Shown piece by piece: positions 54,998-59,236 of a stretch of 64,000 bases of DNA. Source of the DNA: Maritalea mediterranea (GTDB taxonomy: Bacteria; Pseudomonadota; Alphaproteobacteria; Rhizobiales; Devosiaceae); assembly GCF_021568695.1 (NCBI RefSeq), contig NZ_JAKGTI010000003.1:1-64000 (forward strand). Reading direction: 5' to 3'. The notes below the pieces were generated by a model. That model was given only the letters and a program-made list of their open reading frames with translations. It did no database searches and was not told the DNA's origin. Each line of letters opens with the position of its first letter. Position 1 is the stretch's first letter. The position numbers and the translations under genes are program-made.

Positions 54998-55495
54998 CTA
55001 TGCGATTTTCTTGACGCTTTTATAGGTGGCCAAGCCGAATATGGCCGCGATCAGCAATGAGACGATGGCATTCATCCCGGCAAAGCTGAGGCCGAAAAAG
55101 CGCACGCTGGCGCGATCGCACGGCACCACGCGCGAGCCGTCAATATCATTCAATTGCTCAAGACTGATGCCGTCGCCCATGCCGGAGCACGTGTTCGGCC
55201 CGGGCCAGAAACCCCATTCCACCCCGGCGTGATAGCCCGCCTGATAGGTGCTCCACAAAAAGATCAGCATCATGGCGGAGACCAAAGTGGTGATCATGAT
55301 TTTCGAGAGCTTGCTCCAAAAGATCAGCGCCAGCAGCAAAATCGGAAGGGCGATATAATAGGGGTTGCGCTGCGCATAGCATAGTTCGCAAGGCTGATAA
55401 CCCATGACATATTGAAAGAAATAGACGCTGAGAATGGTCAGCGCTGACAGCCCAAAGCCTAAAATGGTCAGCTGTTTTACGTTCAAATTGTTCAC
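54998..55495 (-). CDS. dsbB: Disulfide bond formation protein B
   Basis: Inner-membrane quinone-linked oxidase of DsbA. 165 residues, four TM helices; first redox pair C36/C39 (QPCELCYAQR), second pair C103 and C126 (NTCSGMG, VVPCDR). Second gene after the yqaA-like gene with 14 bases between. No dsbA in the window. Confidence 0.93.
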   Translation of the reverse strand: MNNLNVKQLTILGFGLSALTILSVYFFQYVMGYQPCELCYAQRNPYYIALPILLLALIFWSKLSKIMITTLVSAMMLIFLWSTYQAGYHAGVEWGFWPGPNTCSGMGDGISLEQLNDIDGSRVVPCDRASVRFFGLSFAGMNAIVSLLIAAIFGLATYKSVKKIA

Positions 55496-56536: not shown

Positions 56537-56977
56537 TCAAAAATTTTCCCAAAAATTGAGCCATTACAAATGGTTGAGGACCGGCGCAGTTGACGTGTTT
56601 CTGCGCGTGGTGGTTTGTGTTTGCATGATGCTGACCAGGTTGGATCCCTTGGGTAGGGATTTGGCGGGTGCTTTAAATTCTGTTGGCCCATGCGGGATTG
56701 ACCGCAGGTTGAACAAAATCTTCATCTGAGGTTCAGCTGCCTACCTTTATACCAACGACAACACCGAAAATCGGACATTTCCTGTGCCAAGGATTTGTGC
56801 CGCAATCGAATGCGAGACAATCTTAGACAACTGACTAATGGAACCGAATAGGTGCTTAAACATTCTTACTGAGAATGTGCGTATCAAACTTGATTTGCGT
56901 TTGACCGGGGGTGATCGAACGAATCCTCATCCGAGAAATTGCGAATTTGATTTGTGAAATCAAAAAGGAAGATGACC
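56537..56977. other. 441-bp intergenic region upstream of the OmpA-family gene
   Basis: No coding frame is supported. Seen: a palindrome ACATTCT-TACTG-AGAATGT (56860-56878), about 100 bases before the OmpA-family start, possibly an operator. No obvious terminator follows the tRNA; only an A/T-rich stretch just after it. No direct repeat of the tRNA end was noticed, so no sign of an integrated element. Confidence 0.55.
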
Positions 56978-59236
56978 ATGCGCAACGTGCTTTTGACGAC
57001 GACCATGCTGGCTACGCTCAGTATAGCGCCGACACCGATTATGGCTCAGGACCAATCGGCACCGAGCTCTACAACGCTAGAAGCAGCGCCACAAGGCGAG
57101 ACGTTGGTTGAGGTAAATCTAGATCAGCAACCCCCCGTTGAGCTCGCCGCTGTCTATGAACGATATGCGGCAGCCTTATTGGCCTATCGGCAATTCGGCG
57201 CTGTATCTGAACAACAAGGCAATGGCCAAGCCAAAGGATATGTGGCACTTGAGGTTGACAGCCCCGAGGAGGCGATGGAGATCGTGATGGAGACGGGTGA
57301 CCGGCTCGCTGGAATCTGCGAGCAACTCGGCACGCCAGATATCGCCACTTGTCTTGACCGCTTTATCCCCTCCGGCCAACGTTTGCCCAATGATGTCCGA
57401 CCGCTAGAAGGTGTGGAACAGGCTTCGGCAGCAGAAATGACACGTGGTGATGAAGTCACTGATGGGGCCGACGGCGCGCAAGTGGAGGCGGAAAACACTG
57501 CCGAAACGGAGACCCAAGGCGCAGGGGCAGCCTCACCGCAATCTGACGCGGGGAGCGACCAGATGGAAATGAGCGATGCTGAGCAACCCAACGCTGACAC
57601 CGCCGCCGAGACTGAAGGGCAAGTTGATGCTGAGGCGAGTTCGGATGCTGCAGGGGAAGCTGTAAACGCAGAAGGTCAAGCGACTGCCCAGGCAGATATA
57701 GCTGCCGAGACGCCAACAGAACTGATCGCAGCTTATGAAAGCTATGTTGCAGCGCGACTGGACTTTGTTGACGCCCGGACTTCCGGTGAGGATACCGCCG
57801 CCGCAGGAGCGGTGCAATCTTCGCGTCAACACCTTGAAGAACTGTGCACGGAATTCGGGTCACCAGATCTTGCCACCTGTGTTGACCGATATATCCCGGT
57901 CGAGATGCGCCTGCCGGATGATTTGGCGCCACTGGCCATAAACGCTGACTCTGCACTCATTGACTCAAGCGCTGAGGCACAAGCACCTGCATCCGAGAAG
58001 AGCGGTGATCAGGTGGCTACGGGGTCAGATAGCGATGCGCCTTCTGAGCCGGTTGAGCCGATCGAGGGTGATGATGTGGCGGCGGAAGATGTGGCCCCGG
58101 TGCTGGACAGCGCCAAGGAAGCGACATCAGCGCCAGCTGAGGCAGGGGCGGCTGCCACAACGAAAGTTGAAGGTGAAACCTCTGGTGAGGCTGAGTTGAA
58201 GCAGACAGACGAGGCAGCATCTGCGACTGAGTCAAATGCACCGCCGCCAAAAGATGATGCGGATGCGCAGGCTGATGCGGCGCCGACCGAGATCAAATCG
58301 ATCACCGCGGAAGACGGTGAGCCGGTTTCAAAAGAAGAGCAGGCGGAAACCAGCGGCACACGGGCTGCACCGCAACAAGCAAAGGTGGTGGAAGAGGACC
58401 GGTCTGATTTCCGGATTGTGTTCCAGTTCAACAATCAGACCTTTGTGGAAAGCAAAGACAATGCCCGGTTGGAACAGGGCGCGGATGACATTTATGTTGA
58501 GCGCTTGAGCAATGGCCGGACCCGCGAAACAATTTTGCGCGCGGATGGCTCGGAAGTGGTGACCATTTATAACCGCAATGGCGATATCGTTCGTCGCTCA
58601 CGGTTCACTCCGGAAGGTGAAGAGATCGTGCTGGTTTATGTAGACGAGGCTTATCAGGATGATTTGCTAGAGTGGCGCGATCCTGCCGAACAACTCGGAC
58701 CGCTGCGTTTGGACATTGCGCTTTCGGACTATGTTCTAGATGCAGATGAAGCGGATGAAGAGGAGTTGGTCCAATTTTTTGAACAGCCGCCAGTCGAACG
58801 TGTGCAGCGGCTTTATTCAATCAATGAAGTGAAGCGTTCTGCCCGGCTGCGCGATATGGTGCGGCGGCTCGAAATTGGTGGCCTGACGTTCGCCACGGAT
58901 AAGGCGACTGTCGCGCCGGATCAAATCTCCAGTTTGGCGCATGTCGCGGATGCCATGTTGGATTTGCTAGAAGACAATCCAGCGGAGACCTTCCTGATCG
59001 AAGGGCATACAGATGCCGTTGGTGACGAGATCTACAATTTGAAACTGTCAGATCGTCGTGCGGAAACTGTGGCCGTGCTTCTCACTCAAGTTTTTGGGGT
59101 GCCACCTGAAAACCTGGCCACTCAGGGCTATGGCGAGCGTTATTTGAAAGTGCGGACCGAGCAGCCCGAGCGGCGCAACAGACGGGTGACGATCAAACGG
59201 ATCACGCCGTTGGTTTCGCCAGTGGCCCGTCGCTAA
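56978..59236 (+). CDS. OmpA-family protein with duplicated N-terminal Cys-pair domain
   Basis: Envelope protein of 752 residues. The signal peptide ends near residue 23 (IMA). Then two related domains: residues 52-145 and 246-319, both with C-x3-LG/FG-T/S-PD-I/L-ATC-x-DR-F/Y-IP-x4-RLP and one Cys pair each (114/125, 290/301). Acidic Ala/Glu/Asp-rich linkers separate them (146-245, 320-472). A beta-rich region (about 478-560, FRIVFQFNNQTFVES) follows, then an OmpA C-terminal domain (632-742): GHTDAVGDEIYNLKLSDRR keeps the peptidoglycan-binding Asp 679 and Arg 694. ATG 56978 is chosen because AAGGAAG lies 6 bases upstream; the frame is open to 56954. No beta-barrel is evident: a periplasmic wall-bound protein is likely. 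Monocistronic with its own terminator. Confidence 0.9.
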   Translation: MRNVLLTTTMLATLSIAPTPIMAQDQSAPSSTTLEAAPQGETLVEVNLDQQPPVELAAVYERYAAALLAYRQFGAVSEQQGNGQAKGYVALEVDSPEEAMEIVMETGDRLAGICEQLGTPDIATCLDRFIPSGQRLPNDVRPLEGVEQASAAEMTRGDEVTDGADGAQVEAENTAETETQGAGAASPQSDAGSDQMEMSDAEQPNADTAAETEGQVDAEASSDAAGEAVNAEGQATAQADIAAETPTELIAAYESYVAARLDFVDARTSGEDTAAAGAVQSSRQHLEELCTEFGSPDLATCVDRYIPVEMRLPDDLAPLAINADSALIDSSAEAQAPASEKSGDQVATGSDSDAPSEPVEPIEGDDVAAEDVAPVLDSAKEATSAPAEAGAAATTKVEGETSGEAELKQTDEAASATESNAPPPKDDADAQADAAPTEIKSITAEDGEPVSKEEQAETSGTRAAPQQAKVVEEDRSDFRIVFQFNNQTFVESKDNARLEQGADDIYVERLSNGRTRETILRADGSEVVTIYNRNGDIVRRSRFTPEGEEIVLVYVDEAYQDDLLEWRDPAEQLGPLRLDIALSDYVLDADEADEEELVQFFEQPPVERVQRLYSINEVKRSARLRDMVRRLEIGGLTFATDKATVAPDQISSLAHVADAMLDLLEDNPAETFLIEGHTDAVGDEIYNLKLSDRRAETVAVLLTQVFGVPPENLATQGYGERYLKVRTEQPERRNRRVTIKRITPLVSPVARR

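Follow-up and report, generated by a model that had tools for sequence, protein, structure and literature searches.

A putative family-specific Cys-pair domain on an OmpA-family envelope anchor of the Devosiaceae

Introduction

Pba (PA1041) of Pseudomonas aeruginosa is an OmpA-family peptidoglycan anchor and lipoprotein, and the accessible part of its description names an Asp/Arg pair of the OmpA domain as the residues that hold diaminopimelate (PMC7947798). In Agrobacterium, which belongs to the same order as the organism studied here, Braun's lipoprotein is missing and the wall is attached to a variety of outer-membrane proteins, according to the accessible portion of a paper on that genus (PMC11527210). 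In Rhizobium leguminosarum, the OmpA-family protein RL2752 is required for lentil root colonisation, in the part of the report available (PMC11103875); it might be orthologous to the protein described below. The word OmpA is absent from a review of the Brucella envelope (PMC10787603).

Here we describe a 752-aa OmpA-family protein encoded in a 64,000-nucleotide stretch of the Maritalea mediterranea genome (the window; contig NZ_JAKGTI010000003.1). As far as the accessible text on Pba goes (PMC7947798), the two proteins share a C-terminal OmpA domain, an Asp/Arg pair 15 residues apart, an N-terminal part specific to the member and a place as envelope anchor. Pba is a lipoprotein, whereas no lipobox Cys was seen by eye in the signal peptide of the 752-aa protein, which in addition has a far longer arm and modules with a Cys pair. 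On sequence grounds, we regard this C-x10-C module of the Devosiaceae as an undescribed, family-specific domain on a known kind of envelope anchor. We lean towards reading the whole protein as a periplasmic peptidoglycan anchor whose disordered arm would carry disulfide-stapled docking or spacer beads.

Results

Gene and domain organisation

The gene and the parts of its product are as follows.

56978..59236, + strand: OmpA-family protein, 752 aa (frame and translation; Pfam OmpA, 64.5 bits)
56978..57046, + strand: signal peptide, residues 1-23 (by eye; cleavage probably after IMA)
57131..57412, + strand: module 1, residues 52-145 (helices 54-78, 96-116 and 122-129; C114 and C125; profile E 8.9e-19)
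57413..57706, + strand: acidic linker, residues 146-243, probably disordered (pLDDT block means 27-42; composition)
57695..57952, + strand: module 2 as modelled, residues 240-325 (helices 247-269, 272-292 and 298-305; C290 and C301)
57953..58417, + strand: acidic Ala/Glu/Pro-rich linker, residues 326-480 (pLDDT block means mostly 27-36, up to 56)
58415..58678, + strand: beta-strand region, residues 480-567 (weak model, pLDDT 59-72 over residues 501-550, lower at the edges)
58886..59182, + strand: OmpA peptidoglycan-binding domain, residues 637-735, with D679 and R694 (Pfam; invariant columns; PDB relatives)

An alternative GTG start at 56954 would give a protein of 760 aa. Export to the periplasm is predicted, and neither a barrel nor a lipid anchor was seen in the 752-aa protein. 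The preliminary description of this gene, made from the sequence, had called the OmpA domain intact, and rightly so: residues 637-735 match PF00691 at 64.5 bits against a cut-off of 27.2, and D679 and R694 are invariant in 7 aligned sequences. We take these two to be the diaminopimelate-binding residues, and the domain would bind peptidoglycan. The profile match for module 1 spans residues 50-144 and that for module 2 residues 242-322 (E 2.5e-23); a profile search of the window's genome found the module in this gene alone. The beta-strand region (58415-58678) was alignable in 7/7 orthologues compared and has no Pfam match of its own.

The internal repeat

The internal duplication reported earlier is genuine. 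The 752-aa frame holds two copies, with C114/C125 and C290/C301 in place, that align over their full length with 34% identity (BLASTP E 3e-16), and their local score of 128 was reached by 0/2000 shuffles (25.8 ± 4.9, maximum 54). Taken alone, the part before the motif is similar over 18 residues (score 48; 2/2000 shuffles as high), and copy 1 contains a 17-residue insertion. Other details needed adjustment. The motif exists, but its correct form reads C-x2-[LF]-G and IP-x3-RLP, each one residue shorter than first written; the two cysteines, given as 11 apart, stand at an offset of 11 but are separated by 10 residues (C-x10-C); and the similar part, put at about 90 residues before the motif, covers 62 residues before the first Cys in copy 1 and 44 in copy 2.

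Predicted structure and searches for a known family or fold

An AlphaFold2 model of copy 2, made with 11 relatives (alignment A1), reached pLDDT 89 and pTM 0.80 and predicts a fold of three helices (8-30, 33-53 and 59-66), in which a helical hairpin is followed by a short third helix. Cys51 sits at the end of helix 2 and Cys62 within helix 3, so the pair flanks the turn between them. Overall quality is low in the full-length model, built on 7 sequences (mean pLDDT 47.6), yet the three helices recur in both copies with block means mostly 82-94; for module 1, these were 84-94 over most of the helices and 39-62 around the insertion. In the same model the OmpA domain, though a well-known fold, scored only 26-49, and low linker scores are therefore weak evidence of disorder. 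From these scores in a poor model and from composition, the linkers are likely disordered; the long flexible linkers of the acidic tether proposed earlier thus remain likely, on a model of limited quality overall.

The preliminary description recognised no named family, and our searches agree: no matching family was found in Pfam, NCBIfam or PDB sequences, and in Pfam no single domain matched both segments. Against Pfam and NCBIfam, the copies alone gave nothing meaningful beyond one weak HspR match (E 0.047). When 39 modules were compared with Pfam (E <= 0.1), nine families came up, none of them with more than one module, and searching PDB sequences with a profile built from these modules brought no convincing match (best E 0.17). 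DUF4398 (PF14346) is at most a weak candidate for a parent family; it matched 1/39 modules at E 0.0083, a level at which chance alone should yield about 0.3 matches, and was absent among 8 stretches scanned against Pfam. Foldseek of the module model against the PDB gave no E under 0.001 (best E 4.7). The best of 37 chains compared by VIA-align was Rop (2ijk_A; Z 6.1 over 53 residues, rmsd 2.1), a Z of about 6 being common for helical hairpins according to the tool. Rop and generic PDB hairpins thus resemble the module as antiparallel hairpins but differ from it in sequence (9% identity to Rop) and in the Foldseek result. The twin CX9C (CHCH) proteins of mitochondria are likewise helical, with a Cys spacing of 9 or 10 and an oxidising compartment, but in the accessible part of their description they carry two pairs on one hairpin (PMC12114033), whereas a single pair would staple a third helix to the hairpin in the Devosiaceae module. 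The module falls outside the CHCH family, which was not among the Pfam matches: each module of 51 arms has a single C-x10-C pair, and the model has a third helix. No title or abstract on this Cys-pair module came up in our literature searches.

Distribution of the module

With the C-terminal 271 residues as query, orthologues were found in 102/121 sampled Devosiaceae genomes (E <= 1e-40) and in 153/297 sampled genomes of the order (E <= 1e-30). None was found at the former threshold in 5/16 sampled Devosiaceae genera, many of whose genomes are small or incomplete. A profile of the module (A2) likewise matched 102/121 Devosiaceae genomes at E <= 0.01, and 100 genomes were common to both sets, the positions of A2 matches being compared with the orthologue gene for a part of the matches listed. 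Two genomes (G076 and G108) have an orthologue without an A2 match, one of which (G108) retains one C-x10-C; two others have an A2 match without an orthologue match at threshold, one strong (G072, E 3.5e-20) and one probably due to chance (G009, E 0.008). Because A2 was built from Devosiaceae members, the test is not independent inside the family, and both copies in the window belong to the class (A2 match plus a spacing of 10) by construction, being A2 rows themselves. The protein of L013 (Arsenicitalea aurantiaca, Devosiaceae) is the same as that in family member G002, which identifies the sampled family as the Devosiaceae.

In the order sample, A2 matched 12/13 family members and 5/284 non-family genomes, the latter only at E 0.002 to 0.008, with about 3 expected by chance; by eye, these five appear to be unrelated proteins, two of them lipoyl synthases. 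The class (385 genomes) and phylum (398) samples yielded, at E <= 0.001, the window's genome and one spurious match each. Among the candidates rejected, G975 (E 1.7e-4) reads like an acetolactate synthase, and G779 (E 1.3e-4; L185, G779:C1) is an unrelated 357-aa membrane protein from another alphaproteobacterial family, with a C-x10-C between helices that is probably due to chance. A 265-aa frame in G114 (E 0.002) looked noncoding by eye. Scoring in the wide searches stopped short of the full set of first-look candidates in many genomes (for example, 18 of 42), so the absence outside the family is incomplete. Within the samples searched, the module nevertheless appears confined to the Devosiaceae, with no convincing match outside. 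The order-wide conservation in Hyphomicrobiales that had been expected found no support: among distinct fetched orthologues, the C-x10-C arm was present in 60/60 from the Devosiaceae and 0/54 from other families. The 60 (loci L013-L015, L017, L019-L095, L098 and L104, less duplicates with identical last 200 residues) are a part of the family.

Copy number and locus history

We built a tree of 75 modules over 77 columns, leaving out L060; many of its forks are open and its bootstrap is unsettled. Outside the window's genus, one group (96/81) held 29/30 first modules and 3/30 last modules, a split by which the two-module arm looks old. Within the tree, the nine modules carried by the orthologues in that genus (3 proteins), in G001 and in G010 all fall into a single group (100/99); with both copies of the 752-aa protein inside it, this pair stems from a secondary duplication or was homogenised by gene conversion. 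The two copies had been described as old, which suits the first/last split but not the window's own clade. The second gene of G001 (L054) falls elsewhere in the tree on long branches. Local pairs of this kind occur in G004 (98/89), in G013 (two modules, 96/90) and in the second gene of G062 (99/93); in G028 it is the middle three modules that group together (100/100).

At the G028 locus (L077, G028:C1:2180000-2195000), the protein has five modules, three of them nearly identical, a recent tandem duplication. L060 (G011:C2:176000-191000) is a second, paralogous OmpA gene with six short Cys-pair units 43-60 residues apart, from which helix 1 is apparently missing.

The orthologue was not found in 3/6 genomes of the window's genus. 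In those three, the slot between a YqaA-like and a beta-lactamase-like gene holds a chemoreceptor gene (Pfam MCPsignal):

L201 7809-9839; L202 7834-9849; L203 2881-5217: methyl-accepting chemotaxis receptor in the OmpA gene's slot

A slot without the OmpA gene in half of these genomes indicates that the gene is not essential in the genus. Over 39 loci examined, DsbB was a neighbour only in the window's genus, where it also stands beside slots without the OmpA gene; the neighbourhood is thus no functional link, and a DsbB-OmpA connection was rejected.

Cysteine pairs and proposed role

In the reading that we lean towards, the protein would be a soluble periplasmic anchor whose C-terminal OmpA domain holds peptidoglycan and whose disordered arm, several hundred residues long, would extend from that domain with one to six folded beads. 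In each bead, a short third helix would cap a hairpin of two antiparallel helices; a disulfide across C-x10-C, from the end of helix 2 to helix 3, would make a stapled helix-turn-helix corner and lock the bead, with no large core needed. Oxidised by the DsbA/DsbB system, the beads would most likely dock or space toward outer-membrane-side partners, several in a row providing avidity. This docking or spacer role is, of all the parts of the scheme, the one that we most infer; if docking is the right reading, the partner for the beads would lie on the outer-membrane side.

A less probable account, though one that deserves to be taken seriously, is that the beads have no partner and act as passive bulges that set the length or stiffness of the tether, block proteases, or serve as steric stoppers in the peptidoglycan mesh. 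A copy number ranging from 1 to 6 fits this account, and so do the best-kept positions, which are structural. Across 121 modules, counted from the first Cys, these were G at +4 (93%), A at -8 (87%), D or S at +7 (84%), I, L or V at +8 (81%) and A at +13 (76%), that is, helix-stop, helix-start and packing residues such as a disulfide-stapled helix-turn-helix corner needs. The top charged residue over 38 tabulated positions was Asp at +7 (49%, alternating with Ser), and with no single charged residue above that figure nothing suggests an active site; no conserved surface pointing to a ligand was seen. Orthologues in other families, with an arm of similar length (median 417 residues against 441.5, the frames being partly cut or extended) and other charge, do without this bead, which also agrees with passive beads. 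The median arm charge per residue was -0.157 in 82 Devosiaceae rows and -0.009 in 57 others (range -0.31 to +0.31; rows not de-duplicated); charge that is not conserved is expected of a tether and suits one more than it would an enzyme or a receptor. Against passive beads, first and last modules are distinct over most of the sampled family (29/30 versus 3/30, above), suggesting that they are not interchangeable, and this long-kept difference leans slightly to docking over passive spacing.

The cysteines of the arm bear on the state of each bead. Among the 60 distinct Devosiaceae orthologues, a start was called automatically in 51, and in these arms 224/224 cysteines after residue 26 lie in 112 C-x10-C pairs, with no other spacing under 30 between neighbouring cysteines. 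The number of pairs per protein was one in 4, two in 38, three in 7, five in 1 and six in 1, and the last 260 residues were Cys-free in 59/60 proteins. A check on all 60 frames that does not depend on the start gave 131 C-x10-C pairs. Only 2 unpaired cysteines follow a first pair, both of them in L056, in a 5' part of the frame that lies ahead of the likely start; 73 precede one, and the 21 of these within 75 residues of the pair lie, by eye, upstream of the start or inside the signal peptide. The window's genome has a DsbB gene (54998-55495) and four DsbA-family matches, which show that the cell is able to make periplasmic disulfides. One disulfide per module, as first proposed, is the best inference from these sequences.

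That the pair is instead a redox switch, a reduced bead opening and so altering tether length or binding, seems to us very unlikely: both cysteines are present in 121/121 modules (by construction of the motif search) and no arm Cys lies outside a pair, as a switch would have it, but the neighbouring positions resemble usual helix caps, a CxxC-type motif is absent, and the different Cys pairs in other families' arms (below) fit structural disulfides better. Least credible of all are intermolecular disulfides that join tethers into fibres or meshes, which several cysteines per molecule could permit but which sit badly with an always even number, one short spacing across a modelled helix-turn-helix, and a lone Cys in 0/51 arms.

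Given how the Agrobacterium wall is attached, a widespread OmpA-domain tether with variable beads and no obvious barrel or lipid anchor makes a knockout worthwhile.

Related hairpins and other Cys pairs

In orthologues from three other families (f15, f25 and f28), the arm starts with an Ala-rich, Cys-less helical hairpin. It shares with the module its place in the orthologous protein and about equal length, but no third helix or Cys was seen and by eye it is apparently single copy. A profile of six such hairpins picked by eye (L109, L112, L113, L114, L126 and L127) matched A2 with a probability of 81% (E 1.2e-5 for the single comparison) over 48 columns that cover A2's two long helices and stop just before the first Cys. 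Controls gave 0-0.1% for reversed profiles, at most 0.4% for eight column shuffles and 6.5% for swapped helices, and leave-one-out runs gave 75-86%. The hairpin alone scored 85.9%, helix 1 alone 1.2% and the loop plus helix 2 alone 52.7%, placing the signal mostly in helix 2. When the single profile was run in a plain search against 61 arms from outside the Devosiaceae, no hit was significant (best whole-sequence E 1.7), and one domain of L126 at E 0.0003 came with a whole-sequence E of 6 and strong composition bias; the homology thus rests on the profile-profile comparison of six by-eye stretches. As coiled-coil periodicity helps such matches, we take the Cys-less hairpins as likely, not proven, homologues of the Devosiaceae module. 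The comparison suggests that an older hairpin gained a third helix and a disulfide in the Devosiaceae and then multiplied with changing copy number, which would make the module a case of domain birth.

Reading 54 other-family arms by eye, we saw cysteines in the mature arm of 10 and a lone Cys in none; the remaining cysteines of these frames belong to the signal peptide or precede the likely start. In L111, three cysteines at the beginning of a frame that has no start codon were not counted; L012, L110, L115 and L143 are truncated short of the arm's start; and L102, which carries a Cys pair, was dropped as a duplicate with an identical C-terminus. The other pairs have spacings of 8 (L099, L100, L101 and L103 of family f23, which we guess to be the Rhizobiaceae; L136 and L155), 11, twice (L018), 17, twice (L134), 6 (L123) and 5 (L144), and these differing sequences and spacings suggest independent gains. 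We think it improbable, if worth stating, that the arm is a site of repeated disulfide-knob origin, the knobs being interchangeable latches or stoppers that limit the distance between outer membrane and wall, with bead number tuning reach. The protein of L134 (G276:C9:15500-25500) has a different duplicated Cys motif, C-x17-C twice, and that of L018, from a Phyllobacteriaceae MAG, has two CPPG-x8-C motifs (C-x11-C), apparently an independent duplicated pair.
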